Source of the DNA: Nitratireductor indicus C115
GTDB taxonomy: Bacteria; Pseudomonadota; Alphaproteobacteria; Rhizobiales; Rhizobiaceae
DNA: 64,000 bases
NCBI RefSeq assembly: GCF_000300515.1
Contig: NZ_AMSI01000014.1
Span: 1-64,000, forward strand
Direction of reading: 5' to 3'
Shown here: positions 7,159-21,107 of the stretch, one piece after another
Layout: each line of letters starts with the position of its first letter
Position numbering within the stretch: position 1 is the stretch's first letter
Made by a program: the position numbers and the translations under genes
Notes under the pieces: model-generated
What the model saw: the letters and a program-made list of their open reading frames with translations, nothing else
What the model was told of the DNA's origin: nothing
The model's database searches: none

Positions 7159-7817
7159 TTGACCCACCCCCATCTACTACCGTTCAGAACTCTCCAGATG
7201 TTGACTCTGGACACGCCAAATTTCTCGGCCAGATCGCGAGCAGTATGTGTCGCTCGCAGAGATCGGATTGCACGAACATCACTGACCGTGAGCTTAGAAT
7301 TTTTTACAGCCTCTCCACGGACAACAGTTCCATGAATCTTCTTGTCGGCTTCGTTCTCTTCGGGAGTAGCCCACCTAAGATGCTTTGGGTTGACGCATCC
7401 ACCGCTACCGTTCCCGCAGGAATGGGCGGCCTGATGTCGATCCGTTGGAGGAGGACCGAACACGTTGTTGCAGACAATATTGCCAGCCAGTGTGCTCCTC
7501 CGCTTGTAGGCAAAGACAGCATAGCCCTTCTGTTCACGCTGAAACGGCCATATCAGGCAATCGTCTCCTTCGTAGTTGAGAACGACGCGATAAAAGTAAT
7601 CGGCGGCTTCCCCCCAGTGAGCGCGCCTCTGAACAGAAGACGCCGGCCGGTCTTGGGTGACAGTGGATTTTCCAGATTTACTTGCGAGAGAGGCAGAGCC
7701 GCCGACCGGCTGACCCTGGATTTGACGCTCTTCCTGATAGATCGCGCTGGAAGCAGAAGCCCCGCCACGCTCCAGGGAATTGGTGTTGGGTTCGGAGGTC
7801 ACGCCGCGATACTCCAT
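7155..7817 (-). CDS. HNH endonuclease with C-terminal DNA-binding helices
   Basis: 220 residues. The HNH core is AAHSCGNGSGGCVNPKHL followed by RWATPEENEADK, typical of phage HNH/homing-type nucleases. The last 45 residues (KLTVSDVRAIRSL...ARDLAEKFGVSRVNIWRVL) form a helix-turn-helix like the NUMOD modules of homing enzymes. The first 60 residues are low-complexity and may not be translated if a later start is used. It lies inside the operon rather than splitting a gene. Confidence 0.82.
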   Translation of the reverse strand: MEYRGVTSEPNTNSLERGGASASSAIYQEERQIQGQPVGGSASLASKSGKSTVTQDRPASSVQRRAHWGEAADYFYRVVLNYEGDDCLIWPFQREQKGYAVFAYKRRSTLAGNIVCNNVFGPPPTDRHQAAHSCGNGSGGCVNPKHLRWATPEENEADKKIHGTVVRGEAVKNSKLTVSDVRAIRSLRATHTARDLAEKFGVSRVNIWRVLNGSRWGWVK

Positions 7818-7939
7818 AACCAGTCAATGACGCCGCGAACGGCGAGGATGATCAGAAACCACCCGAGTGCACCGGAAAGCGCTATGGCTGCGGCTATCGC
7901 TGCCGCGACAAGCATTTGGCGGGTGGTGTGGGGAGTCAT
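7799..7939 (-). CDS. Small phage membrane protein
   Basis: 46 residues from the ATG at 7939 (GGGAG upstream). Residues 9-42 are almost continuously hydrophobic, enough for one long or two short membrane passes. It overlaps the HNH gene start by 19 bases. The frame is open to 8116, but the extension crosses the divergent gene at 8027. Function unknown. Confidence 0.55.
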   Translation of the reverse strand: MTPHTTRQMLVAAAIAAAIALSGALGWFLIILAVRGVIDWLWSIAA

Positions 7940-8026
7940 GCGGCCGCTCCCATGGATGGACGCTCCTTCCCGCCGTGCGCATGATGGGAGTGCATGATTC
8001 CAACATGGGACGAGAAGGAGCGAACT

Positions 8027-8263
8027 ATGAAATTGGAACTCGAAACGATGGGTTTCGACCGGGAAGACACCGGCAACTGGTTTGCGGAGTTCACAGTGAG
8101 AGGCGAGCAGAACCAAGAGGTGCTCCGCTTCTCGGAAGCGGTCTTTGCCGGGAAGAACGGAAACGAGACACAGCGATACCAGGACTTCCCGGCCAAAGAG
8201 GCCATGGAGAAGCTTTTCGCAAAAGCCAAAGACCGATTAAGAAAAGCTGCAGAGTCCATCTAA
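8027..8263 (+). CDS. Small phage protein on the opposite strand
   Basis: 78 residues, MKLELETMGFDREDTGNWF. AAGGAG lies seven bases before the ATG; an in-frame ATG at 7994 is possible but lacks a clear ribosome site. The protein is acidic and mixed alpha/beta with a helical end (KEAMEKLFAKAKDRLRKA). It sits alone on the plus strand between leftward genes and ends tail-to-tail with the 8260 gene, overlapping by four bases. Its expression may be separate from the lytic operon. Confidence 0.6.
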   Translation: MKLELETMGFDREDTGNWFAEFTVRGEQNQEVLRFSEAVFAGKNGNETQRYQDFPAKEAMEKLFAKAKDRLRKAAESI

Positions 8264-8520
8264 GCCTCCACATTGTACCGGAGGCCGGATGCGAGACGGA
8301 TCATGCGGGCAATGTGCTCGCCTTCCGTCTCGCCCGGTGCCTTCCGAACGTCCGGAAGATCACCAAGGGCGGTGTACAGCGCACGTTTGAGCGTCGTGAG
8401 ATCACCCCGGCCAAGAAGATGCGGGAGGCTTTCGAGGGAAAAGGTCAGGCGCTCGGAGTTTACATCCAGCCCCATGACGAGGCATCCATTCGAGCTTTCG
8501 ATAAGATGTGCGATGCTCAT
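8260..8520 (-). CDS. Small phage protein in the early leftward operon
   Basis: 86 residues; the second gene after the Cro-like gene, starting inside its stop (ATGA). The sequence contains RLTFSLESLPHLLGRGDLTTLKRAL and reads like a helical regulator. No family recognised. CII-like function is possible from position only. Confidence 0.6.
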   Translation of the reverse strand: MSIAHLIESSNGCLVMGLDVNSERLTFSLESLPHLLGRGDLTTLKRALYTALGDLPDVRKAPGETEGEHIARMIRLASGLRYNVEA

Positions 8521-8765
8521 GCCGCGGCCTCTGGGCTTTGTGGGGCGGGGGTGGAGGGAAGGAAGTCATCAGCAGAAAGGTCAACGCCCTTCTTCCTTGC
8601 GGCATCCAGAAGCGCAGGAACGTGCTTGAACGGGATTACGCCTCCCGTTCCGCCCTTTTCCTTGGCGCGAGACCAATTCGACACACGGGTGCGGTGAACG
8701 CCTGCGATTTCCGCAACTACGCTCGGTCCACCCAGGTTCTTGATGATTGACTGTGCAGGTTCCAT
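8517..8765 (-). CDS. Cro-like helix-turn-helix repressor
   Basis: 82 residues. Residues 6-30 (SIIKNLGGPSVVAEIAGVHRTRVSNW) are a YdaS/Cro-type helix-turn-helix where the recognition helix reads RTRVSNWSR. The gene is the first of the leftward operon and faces the repressor gene, as cro does in lambdoid phages. Its promoter ends just before the ATG, so the mRNA may be leaderless (see the 8773-8800 feature). The last 15 residues are Pro/Ala-rich. Confidence 0.8.
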   Translation of the reverse strand: MEPAQSIIKNLGGPSVVAEIAGVHRTRVSNWSRAKEKGGTGGVIPFKHVPALLDAARKKGVDLSADDFLPSTPAPQSPEAAA

Positions 8766-8772
8766 GTCCGCG

Positions 8773-8816
8773 ATTGTAGCGATTTTAGAAACATCTGCAA
8801 CAAAATTCGTAGCGAA
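8773..8816. promoter_or_regulatory. Repressor/Cro divergent control region
   Basis: Reading leftward, -35 TTGCAG (8800-8795) and -10 TACAAT (8778-8773) are 16 bases apart. The -10 sits in the operator ATCGCTACAAT. The predicted transcript start falls at or next to the ATG at 8765. A second operator copy, GTAGCGAA, is at 8809-8816 inside the small palindrome TTCG-TAG-CGAA. The repressor's own promoter could not be assigned with confidence. This pattern matches two further sites in the element. Confidence 0.7.
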
Positions 8817-8859
8817 TACAGAAAATGCGCTTTCTTCTGGTTCACGCTATGGATTTTGG

Positions 8860-9432
8860 ATGTTGTCCAGATGGCTACAAGAAGCGCTCGAAGCGTCCGG
8901 TGTCTCGCAATCCGAACTGTCGCGTCGGTTGACGGAGGCGCTTGGCCGCTCGATTGATCGCGCGGCAGTGAACAAGATGGCAAAGGGCACGCGGGCGATT
9001 GCTGGCGATGAACTCATTGCCATCCAGACAATTACCGGCATGGAAGCGCCGAGTGAAATTCAAGTCCCTCTCAAGGGACGTGTAGGTGCGGGTCAGCAGG
9101 TCGAAGCAATCGACAACGGCGACATTGATACAGTACCGGCTCCCCGAGATTCAAAGCCTGGGACTGTCGCCGTCGAGGTATCCGGGACATCCATGTTCCC
9201 CGCCTTGGAAGACGGGTATTTGTTATACTATTCCAAGCAGCTTCCGCCGGCGGAAATGGTGAACAGACGCGCGGTCGTGCAACTCGCAGATGGTCGTATC
9301 TTCGTGAAGATCGTTCGGCCAGGTTCTTCGCCTGATGTGTGGACGCTGCAAAGCGTGAACGCATTGTTCGAGGACATGAACGATCAGATTGTCGAGTGGG
9401 CCGCTCCTATCGATTGGATCCGGCCTCGATAA
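8860..9432 (+). CDS. Phage repressor with S24/LexA-type autocleavage domain
   Basis: 190 residues from the ATG at 8860. The N-terminal helix-turn-helix covers about residues 2-60 (LEASGVSQSELSRRLTE). The C-terminal S24 domain has VSGTSMFPALEDG with the probable nucleophile Ser111, the probable base Lys150 in RIFVKIV, and an Ala77-Gly78 pair in RVGAGQ as candidate cleavage site. RecA-stimulated self-cleavage on DNA damage is the family expectation. The frame is open back to 8740, across the Cro start, so the later ATG is chosen even though no strong ribosome site precedes it. Confidence 0.9.
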   Translation: MLSRWLQEALEASGVSQSELSRRLTEALGRSIDRAAVNKMAKGTRAIAGDELIAIQTITGMEAPSEIQVPLKGRVGAGQQVEAIDNGDIDTVPAPRDSKPGTVAVEVSGTSMFPALEDGYLLYYSKQLPPAEMVNRRAVVQLADGRIFVKIVRPGSSPDVWTLQSVNALFEDMNDQIVEWAAPIDWIRPR

Positions 9433-9444
9433 TGGGGGAATTCT

Positions 9445-10056
9445 ATGCGTGGGATTTTCGTTGGCATGGTCGCTATGGCTGCGACTTGCGCGCCGGGGTT
9501 TGCGGCCGGAGAAGGCTGCATCCAAATTTCAAACGATCTGGATCGATTGGCTTGCTACGATAAAGCGCTTGGACGGACACCAGAACAAAAGGTTGAGCCG
9601 GCTGCAAAAGGCAATTGGTCGGTCACGTCCGAAACGTCCAAACTCACCGATCAGACAAATGTTTTCCTCCGCGTGGAGTCCAACGAAGCGGTCAATTGCG
9701 GATGGAACAGAGGCGGGAAAGTAACGCTCTACGTGCGCTGCGTTGAAAATAAGACCGGACTGATATTCGCCACCGGCTGCCATATGACGTCCAGCCAGTA
9801 CAACGACTATGGTGACGTTACCTATCGCCTGGATGATGAGAAGGCGAAGACCGTTGGAATGCAAGAATCGACCAACAATCGATCGCTGGGTCTTTGGAGT
9901 GGCGGGCGCTCTATCCCGGTCATCAAGCAGATGTTCGGCAGGTCGCAGATGGTTGTGAGGATGACGCCATATGGCGAAAACCCTTTCACCGCAACCTTTG
10001 ACATCACCGCGTTGGAAGAATCCATCAAGCCTTTGCGGAAAGCCTGCAACTGGTAA
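9445..10056 (+). CDS. Secreted VasI/TagO-like protein
   Basis: 203 residues with a signal peptide (MRGIFVGMVAMAATCAPGFAA) and a periplasmic domain. The domain starts DRLACYDKAL and ends with a LRKACNW tail. The arrangement matches VasI/TagO-type proteins known next to type VI secretion genes, but here it follows a phage repressor by 12 bases. GGGGGAA precedes the ATG. In a lysogen it is likely expressed with the repressor, so a role in superinfection exclusion or envelope change is possible; this is inference from position. Confidence 0.7.
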   Translation: MRGIFVGMVAMAATCAPGFAAGEGCIQISNDLDRLACYDKALGRTPEQKVEPAAKGNWSVTSETSKLTDQTNVFLRVESNEAVNCGWNRGGKVTLYVRCVENKTGLIFATGCHMTSSQYNDYGDVTYRLDDEKAKTVGMQESTNNRSLGLWSGGRSIPVIKQMFGRSQMVVRMTPYGENPFTATFDITALEESIKPLRKACNW

Positions 10057-10069
10057 GGGATGACACCCC

Positions 10070-10351
10070 ATGACCGACAAGCTCTCTGCCCAACTGATGG
10101 AATCTGCCGATAGGCTGGAAGAGCTTTCGCGCTCCGAAATCCAGGTTTTGCTCCGCCGGGCTGCGCTTCGCCTCGACGGTCGCATGGTGCCGGTCGGCTA
10201 TGTCACGCTGATACCGGAAGCTTCCGAAATGGTCGATGAGTTTGCGAAAGAGCACGACCTGAACATGGATGAGGCGGTCAACTCCATCCTGATCGATTGG
10301 GGAATCTCGGCTGGAATGATCGAGGTCGATGATCTGGATGATGAGGATTAG
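10070..10351 (+). CDS. Hypothetical protein of the lysogenic operon
   Basis: 93 residues, acidic, with a predicted helix near residues 13-33 (RLEELSRSEIQVLLRRAALRL) and an acidic tail (EVDDLDDED). It follows the VasI-like gene by 13 bases and precedes the HEPN gene by two. Similar short proteins occur in rhizobial phages by memory. No function assigned. Confidence 0.65.
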   Translation: MTDKLSAQLMESADRLEELSRSEIQVLLRRAALRLDGRMVPVGYVTLIPEASEMVDEFAKEHDLNMDEAVNSILIDWGISAGMIEVDDLDDED

Positions 10352-10353
10352 GG

Positions 10354-10779
10354 TTGAGCCATCCTCAGTCGATTACAGATTGGCTTGCGTTATGCCGCCA
10401 ACACGAGCGAGCAGCGATGGCAATCGTCGAAGACAAAAAGGCTTGCGCGCAAGCAGTTCAACATGCTGGGTTTGCTGTTGAATGCGCGCTGAAGGCCTAT
10501 ATTTGGCACCAGGAACGGTTCAATCAATGGCCCTCAAGAGAAGCCCGCCCAGATTTGTATACCCATAGCCTTGTGACATTGCGGACCGTAGCCGGAATTA
10601 AAGTGGACCCCACGGAACCCTCTGCACCACATTGGCATATCATGCTACAATGGAACCGAAATCAGGGTTATGACCCTAGACCGATGCCCCGGAAAGTCGC
10701 TCGTTCATATGTGGATGCCGCTTTTGGGGCGGATGGAGTTGCAACATGGCTGCGCCAGAAATTGACGAAAAGTTCTTAG
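10354..10779 (+). CDS. HEPN-domain protein
   Basis: 141 residues starting at a TTG two bases after the previous stop. HAGFAVECALKAYIW matches the helix of HEPN proteins (usual form AxExALKA), and RPDLYTHSL gives the R-x5-H spacing (Arg65, His71) of catalytic HEPN RNases. HEPN proteins act as toxins or RNA-cleaving effectors in defence and toxin-antitoxin pairs. There is no nucleotidyltransferase partner; instead a gene of unknown family overlaps its end by 34 bases. It is cleanly placed in the lysogenic operon. Activity needs testing. Confidence 0.7.
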   Translation: MSHPQSITDWLALCRQHERAAMAIVEDKKACAQAVQHAGFAVECALKAYIWHQERFNQWPSREARPDLYTHSLVTLRTVAGIKVDPTEPSAPHWHIMLQWNRNQGYDPRPMPRKVARSYVDAAFGADGVATWLRQKLTKSS

Positions 10780-11249
10780 CCGCCGGTCGCGAATATGGCG
10801 ATGCGTTGATCGCGCTTGGTCTCGACCCGCATGCCCTTTTTTGGGCATTCGACAAGACCGAGAAGCGACATGTGCTGGTCCTAGTTACAGACTTCTTCGA
10901 CTACACCGGCCCTCTTGAAATCTCAAAACAGTTGCTCAGGGCCTACAACGCATCGATCACTCCCAAGGAGATTGATCCTTTCGTAGTGAGGCTGCACAGC
11001 ATCCATCAGTCAATTAGTGAGCGCTATGTTGGCGCTGCACTGTCTGATGGGACATTTCATGTTTGGGACAAGAACATGAACCCCAAACATGTCCCGCCAG
11101 GGGCTCGCGTTGAATATTTCGACATTGGAGATCTAACGCTCAAGCCAGAATGGACGATCAAAGCCAGGAGCCTTCAGACTCGAAATTCAGTAGAGATCGG
11201 AAGGAAGTGGAAACGCTTCGTCAGGAACGTTGACAAGATTGCCGCATAA
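10746..11249 (+). CDS. Partner of the HEPN gene, unknown family
   Basis: 167 residues beginning MAAPEIDEKFLAAGREYGDAL. The core includes LVTDFFDYTGPLEISKQLLRAYNAS and KEIDPFVVRLHSIHQSISERYVG; the latter half includes a conserved-looking YFDIGDLTLKPEWTIKARS. No signal peptide or membrane segment. The 34-base overlap with the HEPN gene implies coupling. It could be an antitoxin, regulator or effector partner; I do not recognise it. A strong terminator follows ten bases after the stop. Confidence 0.65.
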   Translation: MAAPEIDEKFLAAGREYGDALIALGLDPHALFWAFDKTEKRHVLVLVTDFFDYTGPLEISKQLLRAYNASITPKEIDPFVVRLHSIHQSISERYVGAALSDGTFHVWDKNMNPKHVPPGARVEYFDIGDLTLKPEWTIKARSLQTRNSVEIGRKWKRFVRNVDKIAA

Positions 11250-11258
11250 TCAGGGCAG

Positions 11259-11283
11259 CCCCGCTCCGGCGGGGTTTTCTTTT
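11259..11283 (+). terminator. Terminator of the repressor/HEPN operon
   Basis: CCCCGC at 11259-11264 pairs with GCGGGG at 11269-11274 across TCCG, followed by TTTTCTTTT. It ends the rightward lysogenic transcript after the 10746 gene. Confidence 0.9.
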
Positions 11284-11709
11284 GCCCCTCCCTTCTCAAT
11301 CTCCCCTTTCCTACAGAGAAAAACCTTCAACGTATGAGCTATCTCTACGTCTGAGATTATCTTGGTTCTGAATGATGGAGAGCCAGGAGCCCGAACATAG
11401 GAGGACTAAGCCCCGTGCTCTGAGAGCATCCGAGGTTAGCCCCTATGCTGGACGATTCTGAACGACCGAGCCGCCTATCGCCCTTCCGAGTTGGTCATAA
11501 CCAGCGCCAACCCTCGACCTCACTTTTTCGTTGCCTCTGGCAAGGCCACGGCGGACTCCCCTTCGGTCTTTCGGAGTGGGGATTGCACTTTGTCCGCGCC
11601 CTGTGGTATGCATAAGCCACTGCTTATGTGACCCGAGAGCGCCACAGTCTTCAACCTTCCGCTCTCGTTATCGCCCCGGCCAGCAAATCGCTGCCGGGGC
11701 TTTTCTTTT
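11284..11709 (+). ncRNA. Structured non-coding region between two terminators
   Basis: About 390 bases without a credible protein gene separate the terminator ending at 11283 from another at 11673-11709. Pairings include ATCTC/GAGAT (11341/11353); the nested hairpin CATAGG/CCTATG (11396-11401/11442-11447) enclosing CTAA/TTAG (11406/11436) and GTGCTC/GAGCAT (11415/11424); and CTGTGG/CCACAG (11601/11642) enclosing CATAAGC/GCTTATG (11611/11622). I infer a phage small or large structured RNA. No promoter could be fixed, and there is no match to a named RNA family that I can state. Confidence 0.4.
11673..11709 (+). terminator. Terminator after the structured region
   Basis: GCCCCGGC at 11673-11680 pairs perfectly with GCCGGGGC at 11693-11700 over a 12-base loop, followed by TTTTCTTTT. 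It lies just upstream of the rightward early promoter, insulating it from upstream transcription. Confidence 0.9.
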
Positions 11710-11726
11710 CGCGCATGTTTTTCGGC

Positions 11727-11792
11727 TTGTCAAATTTTGTTTCTTAAATCGCTACAATCCGATTGACAGGTCGTAGCGATAAGCGCTACAGT
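11727..11792 (+). promoter_or_regulatory. Rightward early promoter with repressor operators
   Basis: TTGACA at 11763-11768 and TACAGT at 11787-11792 are spaced by 18 bases. The spacer holds GTAGCG-ATAAG-CGCTAC (11773-11789), a perfect palindrome. Just upstream, ATCGCTACAAT (11748-11758) is identical to the operator/-10 of the Cro promoter on the other strand. TTGTCA at 11727 with that TACAAT would be a second promoter at a poor 20-base spacing. This is the lambda pL-like control point for the recombination/integration operon. Confidence 0.75.
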
Positions 11793-11846
11793 CATTTCCA
11801 TCACCACCTTGGATCACCCGATCCCTGAAACGGAGATGGAGAGCAG

Positions 11847-12221
11847 ATGGCCTACACCACAAAGTCAGCATTGCACCTAGCCCTTTGGGAAGGCGGCGGC
11901 GAAGTCGAGGTTGAGGCCGTCATCACTTTCACGGTGACGAAGTTTTCCCCCGCTACGCACGAGCAGCCAGAAGAGCCGCCGATGGCGGAGGTGTCGGACT
12001 TCCGCATTCGAAAGCCCAAGACAGGCGAATGGTTGGCCTGCCCTGCGTGGATATCTGACGCATTCGAGAGCGACGACAGTTTCATGGATTGGCTCGTCTC
12101 GGAAGCTCAGGAGCAGAACGCATATGCAGAAGAATGCGCTGCCGAAGCCTCACGCGAAGAGCGCCATCTGCTCGAAAACGAGGAAATGGCCCGTCACTTT
12201 GAAAAGCACCCGCACGGATAA
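11847..12221 (+). CDS. First gene of the rightward operon, hypothetical
   Basis: 124 residues, MAYTTKSALHLALWEGGGEVEVE; acidic, with a helical, Glu-rich second half. GGAGA precedes the ATG. Its leading position after the strong promoter suggests an early regulator or host-takeover factor, but no family is recognised. Confidence 0.7.
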   Translation: MAYTTKSALHLALWEGGGEVEVEAVITFTVTKFSPATHEQPEEPPMAEVSDFRIRKPKTGEWLACPAWISDAFESDDSFMDWLVSEAQEQNAYAEECAAEASREERHLLENEEMARHFEKHPHG

Positions 12222-12285
12222 GCGCTCCGGTCAGGGGCGTCAGCGCCCCATTCCCGAACGCTTTTCACAACGAAGGATGAAGGCA

Positions 12286-12708
12286 ATGAACGCCTACAGC
12301 CGAACAGCAGTCGAGCTTGCAGCGGCCATCGGATTTGACCCGGAGAACATCGTGGTTGTTCGTCGCCGTCTGGCGGACGCGATTGATCTCTATGACAACG
12401 AGGATGGCTTGAGCCGTGACATTGCGGTCGAGGCGATCATCGGCAAGCGCCCCGCGTTCTGGACCACCGCCAAGTATCACAGCGCCATTGCCTGCGAACT
12501 GGTGAACGACGCCAATCGCACGTCTCTCGAAGAAGCCATGGAGAATATTCCGGCGCATCGGCGTGCTGATATGGCCCGGTATCTCGATACGCTGGTTCCT
12601 CTGAACCGCCTCGCGGCCAATGAGCTTTCAGAAGCCTATGAGACCGTCGCAGGAACCTTTCGCGATTGCTCGGAGCTTGAGAGCCGTCGCATTCGGAGGG
12701 CCGCATGA
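12286..12708 (+). CDS. Hypothetical phage protein
   Basis: 140 residues from the ATG at 12286 (AAGGA eight bases upstream); another ATG at 12277 and a longer open frame exist. Mostly helical (SRTAVELAAAIGFDPENIVVVRRRLADAIDLY). It ends with the ATGA overlap into the 60-residue gene. Function unknown. Confidence 0.65.
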   Translation: MNAYSRTAVELAAAIGFDPENIVVVRRRLADAIDLYDNEDGLSRDIAVEAIIGKRPAFWTTAKYHSAIACELVNDANRTSLEEAMENIPAHRRADMARYLDTLVPLNRLAANELSEAYETVAGTFRDCSELESRRIRRAA

Positions 12709-12887
12709 CCTCCCTCCCCCTGAGCATCAAGCGCGCCACCCTCTTACACGAGGAATCCAAGGCGCTCCGGCGGTCGATGGTCTTGATCGACGCGCATCAA
12801 TTCAAACTCGCGAACGAGTTCAAGGAAGCTGCCGACAGTTTCCGAAATGCTCGGCTCGCGCTTGAGAACGAGAGGGCAGCATCATGA
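12705..12887 (+). CDS. Small hypothetical phage protein
   Basis: 60 residues, strongly helical and charged (IKRATLLHEESKALRRSM). Coupled by ATGA overlaps to both neighbours. Too short for a family call. Confidence 0.55.
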   Translation: MTSLPLSIKRATLLHEESKALRRSMVLIDAHQFKLANEFKEAADSFRNARLALENERAAS

Positions 12888-13120
12888 ACCCCCGCGATTT
12901 CCACAACGCCTTGCGCATCGTTCACTGCCTTGGCCTAACGGATCTGCAATCCGCCGGCGTGGTCGATGAAAACTGGGGCACTCCCGAAGCGAGCAATCGC
13001 GATCAGATTGCAGCGTTCTTCGATGACCGCTTCACCGAAATTCTCCGCATGCCAGACGCGAACTTCGACCGGCTTTGCAAGCTGATCGAGAGCCGCCAGC
13101 CGAGCAGGAGGGCAGCATGA
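12884..13120 (+). CDS. Small hypothetical phage protein
   Basis: 78 residues, MNPRDFHNALRIVHCLG; helical, acidic centre. It starts inside the previous stop and its own stop overlaps the next start (ATGA). No function known. Confidence 0.6.
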   Translation: MNPRDFHNALRIVHCLGLTDLQSAGVVDENWGTPEASNRDQIAAFFDDRFTEILRMPDANFDRLCKLIESRQPSRRAA

Positions 13121-18064: not shown

Positions 18065-18584
18065 ATTAGCTGACCGTCTCCAGCGCCTCGCGAAGCGCCG
18101 TGAGGACGAGGGGATTTATACGGACGCCGCCCTATGCGATGAGGTCGCAACCTATCTTCGCGCCGCAGGAGAGGAAGCGGGCGGCGTGAAGGTGAGGGCG
18201 CTGGAATGGAAGCGCTATCGAGATGGTGATGCAGATGCGGTCACGCCATTCGGTGACGTTTATACAGCCTACGCCGGTGGCTATTGGCGGATAACGGAGC
18301 GAGGCAAGGCTGGCAAGTTCATTCGCGCGGGGTTCGATACTGCATCCGCCAAAGCCGCCGCACAGGCCGACTATGAACGCCGCGTTCTCTCCGCACTAGA
18401 ACCCGCCCCTTCCCCCATCGTAGACGATGCGATGGTGGAGCGGGCGGCGCGAAATGCACTGATGTATCTGAAGACAGGGTTCATTGAATGCGACCATTGC
18501 GGCCACGAAATCAAAACCAATACTCTTGACGCTGTCTATGAACTTAACGCCGCTCTATCAGGAGCGCGGGAGGAAGGGGAATGA
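18048..18584 (+). CDS. Hypothetical phage protein with a CxxC pair
   Basis: 178 residues from the ATG at 18048. It begins MTRIAELADRLQRLAKRREDEG, has a centre VTPFGDVYTAYAGGYWRIT and ends with ECDHCGHEIKTNTL, a possible half zinc ribbon. It overlaps the previous gene by 17 bases. No function known. Confidence 0.55.
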   Translation: MTRIAELADRLQRLAKRREDEGIYTDAALCDEVATYLRAAGEEAGGVKVRALEWKRYRDGDADAVTPFGDVYTAYAGGYWRITERGKAGKFIRAGFDTASAKAAAQADYERRVLSALEPAPSPIVDDAMVERAARNALMYLKTGFIECDHCGHEIKTNTLDAVYELNAALSGAREEGE

Positions 18585-19414
18585 CAACTGTCTATCAAGC
18601 ATCCCTTCCGCTGCGCCGAGAAACGACAAATCAGCCTATTCGATTTGTGATTTTCGTCAGCTACGGCAACGATAGCGTCGCATTGATACAATGGGCTCAC
18701 GAAAGCAATCTTGAAGGCGTAGCTGTCGTTTTTACAGATACTGGATGGGCCGCTGATGGCTGGATGGATCGCGTTGATCAATGCGAAACTTGGGTTAAGT
18801 CTCTCGGGTTCACCCCTTACCGAACTTCATCCATCGGCTTCCGCCAGCTTGCCCGCGAGAAGAAAGGTTTCCCGACACAACGGTATCAGTGGTGTTCTTT
18901 CATCCTGAAAATTGAACCGGGCCAACGGTGGTTGGATAAGTATGACCCTGACGCTAGGGCTGTGTGTCTGATAGGGGTTCGCCGAGAAGAGAGTGAGGAC
19001 CGATCCGACTTCCCAGAATGGTTGCCCCGTAGCGATAACCACGGCGGTCGAGTCATGATCGCGCCGTTCGCCACATGGTCAACCGAGCAGAGAGACGCAC
19101 TGATCCGACGCGCAGGGTTTGATGTTCTGCCGCATCGCTCTCGCGAGTGCAAATGCATCAACTCCAAGCGATCCGATATGCGGCGTTTCACTGATGCCGA
19201 TTGGCAAGAAATCTCTGACGCCGAGGCGGAAATTGGAAAGACGATGTTCCGTCCACATCGACACATGGGCGCGAAGGGTGCCGCCGAGGTGAGGAAGTGG
19301 GCAAACAGCGAGCGTGGGAAATATCAACCACCAGACCCTTCCGACGCTATTCCTCCTGATGATCTTCCCGATGAAGATTTGTCAGGATGCAAACCTGGAT
19401 GGTGTGAGCAATGA
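18581..19414 (+). CDS. PP-loop (PAPS reductase-like) phage protein
   Basis: 277 residues. The pyrophosphate loop is FVSYGNDSVAL (Ser27 to Ser32; canonical SGGxDS), followed by VVFTDTGWAADGW and a Cys-containing RYQWCSFILK, with ECKCINSKR further on. This matches the phage group of phosphoadenosine-phosphosulfate reductase/DndC-like ATP-dependent sulfur or adenylation enzymes. Its substrate is unknown; DNA or tRNA modification is possible. No other phosphorothioation gene is near. It starts in an ATGA overlap and ends in one. Confidence 0.75.
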   Translation: MTTVYQASLPLRRETTNQPIRFVIFVSYGNDSVALIQWAHESNLEGVAVVFTDTGWAADGWMDRVDQCETWVKSLGFTPYRTSSIGFRQLAREKKGFPTQRYQWCSFILKIEPGQRWLDKYDPDARAVCLIGVRREESEDRSDFPEWLPRSDNHGGRVMIAPFATWSTEQRDALIRRAGFDVLPHRSRECKCINSKRSDMRRFTDADWQEISDAEAEIGKTMFRPHRHMGAKGAAEVRKWANSERGKYQPPDPSDAIPPDDLPDEDLSGCKPGWCEQ

Positions 19415-19668: not shown

Positions 19669-20068
19669 GCCTGAACCGAACATCGTGGATATCGGGGACG
19701 ATGAGCCCATGACGCTCATTGAGGCATGCCGCATCGTCTTTCGGGATGCCATCAAGCCTGCCACACTGAGGGCCGAGGCTGCGCGAGGCAACCTTGTCAT
19801 GGAAAGGATCGGGCGGCGTGACTTTGTCACTCGATCCGCATTGATGGAGATGAGGGAGAAATGCCGCGTCCAGCAAAAGGCGCCAGATTGTGGTTCGACA
19901 AAAAAGCCGCCCTCTGGTTCATCCGAGACGGATCGATCAAGCGTGGCACTGGCTGCGGCTTTGAGGAGCGCTCGAGCGCTGAGGGAAAGCTCAGGGCATA
20001 CATCGAAGAAAAATACGAACCGCCAACAGACAGTCGTTCATCTGCTCTCCTCGTCGCAGACGTCCTGA
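19661..20068 (+). CDS. Excisionase-like helix-turn-helix protein
   Basis: 135 residues. TLIEACRIVFRDAIKPATLRAEAARGNL is followed by VMERIGRRDFVTRSALMEMREKC, the layout of phage excisionase/MerR-like helix-turn-helix proteins. Its last 208 bases overlap the integrase in another frame, where the sequence turns Ser/Thr/Arg-rich and is likely unstructured. The Xis function is inferred from the fold and the position directly before int. Confidence 0.75.
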   Translation: MGRPEPNIVDIGDDEPMTLIEACRIVFRDAIKPATLRAEAARGNLVMERIGRRDFVTRSALMEMREKCRVQQKAPDCGSTKKPPSGSSETDRSSVALAAALRSARALRESSGHTSKKNTNRQQTVVHLLSSSQTS

Positions 20069-20973
20069 CCTACTATTCCAGAGAGGTCGCAGGCGGACAG
20101 CGTTCCAAGACCTCGAGCTATTCTATCGAGCGCCTGCTTGGCTGGTGGGGGGCCAAGCCTCTCTCGGAGGTGAAGCGCTCTACCTGCCAAGCTTATGTCG
20201 AGCATAGGGCCTCTCAGCCGATCCGGCAGGCCACCAAGTCGAAGAAGCCCAAGCTCGTATCCCGTGAGACCGCCAGACGCGAGCTTACCGTGCTCCGGGC
20301 AGCCATTAATGCCTATCACGCAGAAACGCCTCTGGACGCCCTTCCTGTCGTCACCATGCCCAAGCAGTCACCAGCACGAACACGCTGGCTGACACGTGAT
20401 GAAGTCGCGCGCCTTCTACGGGCTGCAAGGAAGTTGGAGGAGAAAGATTCTGCCCGCGCATTGCAGCGGTTCATCATGATCAGCATCTACACCGCGACTA
20501 GATCCGGCGCAGTTCGTCGCCTTGGGTGGGTGGAGAACACACTTGGAGGATATGTCGATACCGGTGCCGGCGTCATGCATCGGCGCGGGGCAGATGAGGA
20601 AGAAACCAGAAAGCGCCGCCCCCCGATTCGTATCCCCAACCGCCTGTCAGGCTTCATGAGGCGGTGGAAAGACGAAGACATGCGGGAGACGAAGGAGCGC
20701 AAAGCCATACCCTTTGTGATCCATTTTCGCGGCAAGCCGGTGAAGGCGCAAAGGAAATCATGGGAAGAAGCCCGGGCAAACGCCGGTCTGGGGAAGGAAG
20801 TGACGCCGCACATCCTCAAGCATACAGCCGTGACCTGGATGATGCAGAGCGGTGCCGACCCATGGGACGTTGCCGAATACGCTGGAACGAGCCTGAAAAT
20901 GATCGAGGATGTCTACGGGCACCATCACCCGGACTTCCAAGGGGACATCGCATCGAGGATCGGAAGACGATGA
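19861..20973 (+). CDS. Phage tyrosine integrase
   Basis: 370 residues. The N-terminal arm/core-binding part is followed by the catalytic domain with Arg214 (TATRSGAVRRL), His317 in HILKH, and Tyr352 in VYGHHHPD. The box usually written HxLRH reads HILKH here: Lys320 is in place of the second Arg. The gene ends 59 bases before the tRNA-Thr 3' end, its likely target. The gene overlaps the excisionase by 208 bases, so the two are probably co-expressed. Confidence 0.93.
   Translation: MPRPAKGARLWFDKKAALWFIRDGSIKRGTGCGFEERSSAEGKLRAYIEEKYEPPTDSRSSALLVADVLTYYSREVAGGQRSKTSSYSIERLLGWWGAKPLSEVKRSTCQAYVEHRASQPIRQATKSKKPKLVSRETARRELTVLRAAINAYHAETPLDALPVVTMPKQSPARTRWLTRDEVARLLRAARKLEEKDSARALQRFIMISIYTATRSGAVRRLGWVENTLGGYVDTGAGVMHRRGADEEETRKRRPPIRIPNRLSGFMRRWKDEDMRETKERKAIPFVIHFRGKPVKAQRKSWEEARANAGLGKEVTPHILKHTAVTWMMQSGADPWDVAEYAGTSLKMIEDVYGHHHPDFQGDIASRIGRR

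Positions 20974-21032: not shown

Positions 21033-21107
<75 letters not shown>

Follow-up and report, generated by a model that had tools for sequence, protein, structure and literature searches.

A HEPN gene and its overlapping partner as a putative two-gene cassette in a Nitratireductor indicus prophage

Four genes follow the repressor of a presumed lysogenic operon in Nitratireductor indicus C115, and the locus raises the question of which of them belong together and what they might do for a lysogen. The window (the whole stretch of 64,000 nucleotides that was analysed) begins with base 1 of contig C14 in a 4.99-Mb genome. The first 21 kb resemble a prophage arm, with genes for a DnaB-like helicase, a DNA methyltransferase, a GcrA-like regulator, an HNH endonuclease, a CI-like repressor, an exonuclease, RecT, a NinB-like protein and an integrase. 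A perfect 52-bp copy of the tRNA-Thr end lies on contig C27 and probably represents the expected other attachment site. When 15 kb of the window was compared with phages, no match was found. Positions 18581-19414 hold a phage gene (phrog_424, 1.8e-32) for a phosphoadenosine phosphosulfate reductase-like protein; such a reductase is annotated in Labrenzia phage vB_LagS-V1, which also gave the best phage match to the VasI-like gene (55%). The features that the analysis draws on are these:

8740..9432, plus strand: CI/S24-type phage repressor (Pfam 4.3e-7, PHROG 2.9e-10)
9445..10056, plus strand: VasI/TagO-like protein (PF11319 5e-17, phrog_1848 2.7e-33)
10070..10351, plus strand: 93-aa protein without a Pfam family or phage match
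10354..10779, plus strand: HEPN protein, 141 aa, TTG start (model pLDDT 87.3; best PDB match the archaeal HEPN ST0689)
10746..10779, plus strand: 34-bp overlap of the HEPN and partner genes
10746..11249, plus strand: partner protein, 167 aa, alpha/beta (model pLDDT 83.9)
11257..11276, plus strand: terminator-like stem-loop with a T run and more base pairs than any other of the 8 sites detected in 7500-13000
19861..20973, plus strand: prophage integrase (phrog_1 1.4e-36), adjoining tRNA-Thr and marking the prophage end
21033-21107: tRNA-Thr, beside the integrase

The repressor, VasI-like, 93-aa, HEPN and partner genes run in one direction; after the repressor, they are separated by gaps of 12, 13 and 2 bp, followed by the overlap. 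The repressor, whose true start is probably further in, would be the first gene of the presumed operon and stands outside the cassette proposed below. A small divergent protein (8517-8765) gave a weak YdaS match (21.6 bits versus a cut-off of 30) and is possibly a Cro-like partner of the repressor. A sequence-only reading of this DNA had described four genes downstream of the repressor and in its direction, the last of them a 167-residue gene overlapping a HEPN gene and followed by a terminator. All four ORFs and the overlap were found where that reading had put them. The stem at 11257-11276 is present as well and is a plausible, unproven terminator; the scan of 7500-13000 gave 8 sites versus 5.2 +/- 2.4 in shuffled sequences. 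A weak promoter scan found no plus-strand site within the four genes, and Rfam gave no match in window positions 8500-12000. As with Tha of phage 80alpha, whose HEPN gene the available part of PMC11087260 places on the cI transcript, the pair would be expressed in the lysogen, together with the other genes of the row.

HEPN and partner genes

The structure model of the 10354 product (pLDDT 87.3) matched ST0689 with a probability of 1.00 and TM scores of 0.63/0.71, the sacsin HEPN with a probability of 0.98 and AF_0298 with a probability of 0.93. Foldseek E-values against the PDB were weak (0.041 at best), and the HEPN profile gave no match in the PDB. The model supports a HEPN fold for this product, in agreement with the sequence-only reading. 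When 13 family members were scanned with the Pfam HEPN family (PF05168, cut-off 22 bits), three scored above the cut-off (L002 28.7, L069 27.8 and L034 26.8 bits), three scored below it (L008 21.5, L001 21.1 and L009 15.5 bits) and seven gave no match (the window, L006, L064, L036, L047, L044 and L043). At L044, near a viral contig end, a second HEPN-like protein (1808-2302; PF05168 21.6 bits versus 22) stands directly after the pair.

Helix 2 of the HEPN model spans residues 31-54 and contains E43-x3-K47, helix 3 spans residues 91-98, and H71 lies between them. E43, K47, H71 and Y106 were invariant in all 17 aligned loci, and R102 was arginine in 10 of them, the other 7 having an arginine three places later, directly before Y106. 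E43-x3-K47, H71, R102 and Y106 make up a candidate site. The Rx4-6H motif is placed at the end of helix 3 in the accessible text of PMC3710099, and a canonical Rx4-6H was found there in none of the 17 loci within the aligned segment; the window HEPN has R102-x4-D107 at that place. According to the same text, Asp can stand for His in PF05168-type HEPNs (PMC3710099). The sequence-only reading had pointed to Arg65-His71 as an Rx5H motif. Its positions and spacing were correct and H71 was kept in 17/17, but the motif stands outside its usual place and Arg65 is arginine in 8/17 (8 of the 10 loci of the long-partner branch and none of the 7 of the short branch). Conservation of the HEPN residues, on which that reading had staked its proposal, was split between an invariant histidine and a variable arginine, and R65-H71 was rejected as the active site. 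The Rx4-6H spacing does occur elsewhere in the long branch, as in R65-H71 between helices 2 and 3, and a role of R65 confined to that branch is conceivable. AF0298-like and AbiV HEPNs are described as having another conserved His in an insert between helices 2 and 3, which, combined with the basic residue still present, could make up an alternative site (PMC3710099, as far as accessible). The HEPN studied here has a His in the helix 2-3 insert, the helix 2 E-x3-K/R and a basic residue ending helix 3, and its residues fit this alternative-histidine class.

The partner gave no match in Pfam, PHROGs, NCBIfam, PADLOC or phages, and no scanned member of its family had a confident match in any family library. 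Neither its profile (against the PDB) nor its model (against the PDB and viral structures) produced a match, significant in the latter case, to a known fold. W33 was the only invariant residue among the partners (17/17 aligned), and Walker A was found in 0/17. On this evidence, a binding or sensing role seems likelier for the partner than an enzymatic one. Its relatives form a long branch of 162-189 aa with a C-terminal extension and a short branch of 127-134 aa. A comparison of the long and short profiles gave 93% (E 3e-7), and one G731 protein was matched by both (1.4e-23 and 1.1e-5); by sequence, the two branches look like one family.

The ATG of the partner was located inside the HEPN gene in 17/17 loci, with an overlap of 34 bp (9 loci), 25 bp (2) or 22 bp (6). 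The differences between these lengths are multiples of three, so the two genes keep one relative frame throughout. This set of 17 includes L004, which is nearly the window, and contains no E. coli locus; outside it, L038 (from the frames, as a contig end cuts off most of the HEPN) had an overlap of 34 bp and L069 from E. coli one of 22 bp. The 17 loci used for residues include L069 and leave out L004. Both sets were chosen for having both genes and are not independent (L002/L058 and L039/L045 are close). For the HEPN of L037, an in-frame CTG at 2579 was taken as the start, and L057 and record CP140831 (H3) were taken to the level of motif check or listing. At loci found by one gene, the other gene was beside it in every case read, except G709. 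Purifying selection was seen on both genes, with dN/dS of 0.16 for the HEPN and 0.07 for the partner in L039/L045, and of 0.05 and 0.12 in L002/L058; the other three pairs were saturated or nearly so at synonymous sites. The HEPN and its partner are well supported as a unit.

G709 (L029:1863-2252 and L084:1890-2279) has a HEPN of the same class with a different overlapping partner of 129 aa. Its order of features is alike by eye, and it gave no profile match to the partner of the pair (probability 0.3%). G709 was left out of the partner alignments and the 17-row count, and its HEPN was kept in alignment A5.

At the order level, the partner search matched 1 of 397 genomes, the window's own, and at the class level HEPN profile A3 matched 3/289. 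At the phylum level, the partner profiles matched 2/299 and 3/299 genomes and HEPN profile A5 matched 19/299. Five of these 19 had E < 1e-40, four with the partner (G000, G424, G459 and G731) and one, G709, with the different one; four of the five matches are themselves rows of A5. In each of the 14 weaker genomes, one locus or more had a ParA/MinD-like ATPase motif next to it. A relative was present in 189/5426 complete E. coli genomes (about 3.5%), at one place each and always on the chromosome, and each of the 189 matches spans 80% or more of the pair, so that both genes are present. Nine E. coli loci, picked non-randomly from printed rows, were viewed, and in them the pair lies in the lambdoid early region before ybcN-ninE; this single kind of prophage slot may be due to common phage descent and not to selection for defence. 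The pair stands downstream of a repressor in the window, L004 and L047. Its other homes are a Klebsiella phage, viral contigs, G424 and G459 (both of the window's class) and, between apparent host genes by eye, G731 and L006, the latter beside flagellar genes on a Caulobacteraceae contig. It is also found on a 13.9-kb Acinetobacter plasmid (L034), one gene from BrnT/BrnA. This BrnT/BrnA toxin-antitoxin pair occupies L034:1882-2470.

Possible action of the pair

We propose, with about an even chance of being right, that the two genes are a mobile cassette in which a HEPN effector is accompanied by its own regulator, in the manner of toxin-antitoxin or abortive-infection systems. By analogy with known dyads, such an action would be reasonable, and the suggestion of the sequence-only reading that this is phage cargo of a toxin-antitoxin or anti-phage kind is supported. 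Gene 1 would encode a small all-helical HEPN of the alternative-histidine class, like AF0298, AbiV and the HEPN of the PADLOC candidate PDC-M28. Gene 2 starts within gene 1, and the two products would probably be made in a fixed proportion. In a healthy cell, the partner would bind the HEPN and keep it off. Phage infection or gene loss would upset this complex, and the freed HEPN would then cut or clamp RNA and stop translation, leaving the cell killed or arrested. Cleavage of RNA is doubtful, because Rx4-6H is absent from the end of helix 3 in 17/17. The HEPN-first gene order, opposite to that of MNT-HEPN systems, also counts against this reading, as do the weak HEPN E-values against the PDB, the selection of the 17 loci for having both genes and the single kind of prophage slot in E. 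coli. That the partner acts as an antitoxin is a guess, because one residue, W33, is conserved in 17/17 and no fold match was found; it may be an antitoxin or a sensor, and the lysogen may benefit. More tentatively still, and rather against our expectation, the partner could be a third kind of dedicated partner for alternative-histidine HEPNs, in addition to MNT enzymes and ParA-like ATPases, namely a phage-sensing small alpha/beta protein that switches the HEPN on.

The pair could instead be a plain addiction (toxin-antitoxin) pair that stabilises a prophage or plasmid and plays no role against other phages. Its overlapping genes, its presence in prophages and its place on a small plasmid close to a second toxin-antitoxin pair are what such a pair would show, but it is also chromosomal between apparent host genes (L006 and G731; by eye) and its HEPN-first order is unusual by the account in the accessible text of PMC3710099. 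We regard plain addiction as possible, though not likely.

An unlikely explanation is a non-catalytic regulatory pair, with a HEPN that binds RNA or nucleotides under modulation by its partner and does not kill, for example in the lysis-lysogeny choice or in host translation. To our knowledge, neither ST0689 nor sacsin, the two best structural matches, has been shown to be an RNase. Rx4-6H is absent from the end of helix 3, and HEPN domains without this motif are thought to be RNA-binding domains (PMC3710099, as far as accessible). The four polar residues that are invariant in 17/17, however, suggest a working site rather than a pure scaffold, and the location on mobile elements also argues against a regulatory pair.

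We consider it very improbable that the pair is a HEPN/MNT (type VII) system that modifies Y106, with a degenerate MNT nucleotidyltransferase as the partner. Of the seven PDB chains that the partner model matched best, four came from entries of HEPN-MNT complexes, the chain type (HEPN or MNT) not being given, and Y106 is conserved in 17/17, as noted for class II HEPN/MNT in the accessible part of PMC7641770. Those PDB matches were, however, non-significant (E 0.39 to 0.76, probability at most 0.14, TM at most 0.34), and the strict GSx10DxD was found in 0/17 partners, a loosened pattern fitting L009 alone.

HEPN dyads are described as very abundant toxin-antitoxin systems (PMC7641770), and the action of HEPN proteins without the classic RNase motif is unsettled in the accessible texts of PMC3710099 and PMC7641770. 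The cassette proposed here is a compact case, with a motif-less HEPN and a partner without recognised enzyme identity, and its E. coli copy makes tests possible in a laboratory strain. If the phage-sensing reading of the partner is true, the pair would be an immune or toxin-antitoxin system of temperate phages in several proteobacterial groups, including about 3.5% of complete E. coli genomes (189/5426).

VasI-like and 93-aa genes

The 9445 product was VasI/TagO-like, as the sequence-only reading had it, scoring 62.6 bits with PF11319 (cut-off 26.5). With the T6SS VasI model TIGR03360 it scored 53.6 bits, below the equivalog cut-off of 124.2, and its signal-peptide-like N-terminus was judged by eye. 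VasI/TagO-like genes are common phage cargo, and 26 phage records match the 9445 gene. The 93-aa protein gave no match among phages; to the eye, its second half reads like a ribbon-helix-helix.

Locus L004, a metagenomic phage contig from a mosaic sister phage, matches the window blockwise, at 97-98% in 7641-8553 and 10069-11849. The stretch with the repressor and VasI is replaced there by another repressor (S24 34.4 bits; phrog_4 1.9e-19) and two small genes. Over the 896 bases of the HEPN-partner pair the two differ by a single mismatch, and over the 282 of the 93-aa gene by 6. In L047, the pair is preceded by another repressor and a different small gene. Among the loci compared by tblastn, VasI was confined to the window's own, three phage loci chosen for their VasI gene and five from E. 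coli; the other long-partner loci, where some flanks are short (e.g. L043 and L038), gave no match. Matches to the 93-aa protein were limited to the loci of the window itself and of the L004 contig, some flanks again being short. These results indicate that VasI is separate phage cargo, swapped along with the repressor block.

The two small genes of L004 (4624-5328), at the end of the swapped repressor block and in place of the window's VasI, had no confident family; by eye, their products look like secreted proteins or lipoproteins. Each immunity block may come with an envelope protein of its own.

The TagO/VasI, HEPN and partner trio was intact in 8 of the 263 E. coli genomes that matched any of the three. 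Among the 60 rows listed from this count, the trio was seen in 2, while 41 contained the pair but no TagO and 17 contained TagO but no pair. At E. coli L069, TagO is set off from the pair by 464 bp and a terminator-like stem. The TagO/VasI gene and the pair behave as independent cargo. Because the pair stands without VasI and the 93-aa gene at other loci (a Rhizobium plasmid, L006 from Caulobacteraceae and G731) and VasI is swapped in L004, we limit the cassette to two genes. A single four-gene lysogenic defence module of VasI, the 93-aa protein, HEPN and partner, for which the shared strand, the short gaps and a TagO/VasI gene before the pair in 5 of the 9 E. coli loci viewed might speak, is largely refuted by the absence of VasI from other long-partner loci (some with short flanks), the low count of trios and the interval in L069, and retains almost no credibility. 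The sequence-only reading had placed VasI in one module with the pair, a proposal that finds no support in the sister phage, which keeps the pair without it; the combination that it had singled out does recur, with TagO before the pair in those 5 loci, but its members are mostly apart (8/263). The VasI-like cargo is thereby set apart from the HEPN cargo as something exchanged independently.

Comparison with known systems

The defence catalogue used was PADLOC-DB 2.0.0, in which the nearest candidate, PDC-M28, combines a HEPN (model A, of PDLC04557/04558) with a ParA/MinD-like ATPase (model B, of PDLC04559/04560). PDC-M28 probably corresponds to the dyad of a MAE_18760 HEPN and a ParA/Soj-like ATPase in PMC3710099. 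That dyad is proposed there, in the part accessible, as a toxin-antitoxin system with the ATPase in an MNT-like position (PMC3710099). The likeness lies in the HEPN and the layout: in seven aligned HEPNs of the PDC-M28 type, E-x3-K, H and W..RY were invariant, as in the HEPN of the pair; profiles of the two HEPNs matched at 97% (E 1.3e-10); and in the PDC-M28 loci read, the HEPN is the 5' gene with its partner adjacent or overlapping, as in the pair. The partners differ, that of PDC-M28 being a large ATPase (PDC-M28B 7e-180 for L012) and that of the pair a protein of 127-189 aa without Walker A. PDC-M28A matched the window HEPN at 5.7e-5 and 21.6 bits, versus 169.6 bits for L012, and the partners of the window, L001, L002, L006, L064 and L069 matched no PADLOC model. 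With A weakly matched and the ATPase absent, membership in PDC-M28 was ruled out.

HEPN/MNT (HepT/MntA, type VII) is likewise a two-gene HEPN dyad with a conserved tyrosine. Class II HEPN/MNT also occurs without RX4H, and its conserved tyrosine is noted in the accessible part of PMC7641770. The pair lacks the marks of this system, GSX10DXD being found in 0/17 partners and RX4HXY being absent from the HEPN. MNT-HEPN systems are described with an antitoxin-first gene order (PMC3710099, in the part accessible), the reverse of the pair, whose 5' gene is the HEPN.

The G731 HEPN scored 21.1 bits with NCBIfam AbiV and 19.6 bits with Pfam HEPN_AbiV, below the cut-offs of 27 and 27.1, and the window HEPN matched neither AbiV model (PF18728 and TIGR04498). 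We know of no such partner with which AbiV acts. Its HEPN belongs, like that of the pair, to the alternative-histidine class as described in PMC3710099, in the part accessible. Tha, from a Staphylococcus prophage, is HEPN cargo read from the cI transcript, as the pair would be, but Tha-1 is one protein of 301 aa and has an Rx4H site, whereas the pair consists of two proteins without such a site (PMC11087260, in the part accessible). The 9445 gene is an ordinary member of the VasI/TagO-like phage cargo of phrog_1848, outside the cassette. The searched literature on prophage or two-gene HEPN systems and on TagO/VasI, at the level of titles and the starts of abstracts, describes no such pair, and no papers were found for PDC-M28, WP_001038620, WP_000520499, WP_000520500 or WP_130818609, most subscription papers and all preprints being outside the scope of the search.

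By the tests made, the pair stands outside PDC-M28, HEPN/MNT and AbiV. It shares the HEPN class and the layout of PDC-M28 and not its partner, and it would most likely work like these dyads.
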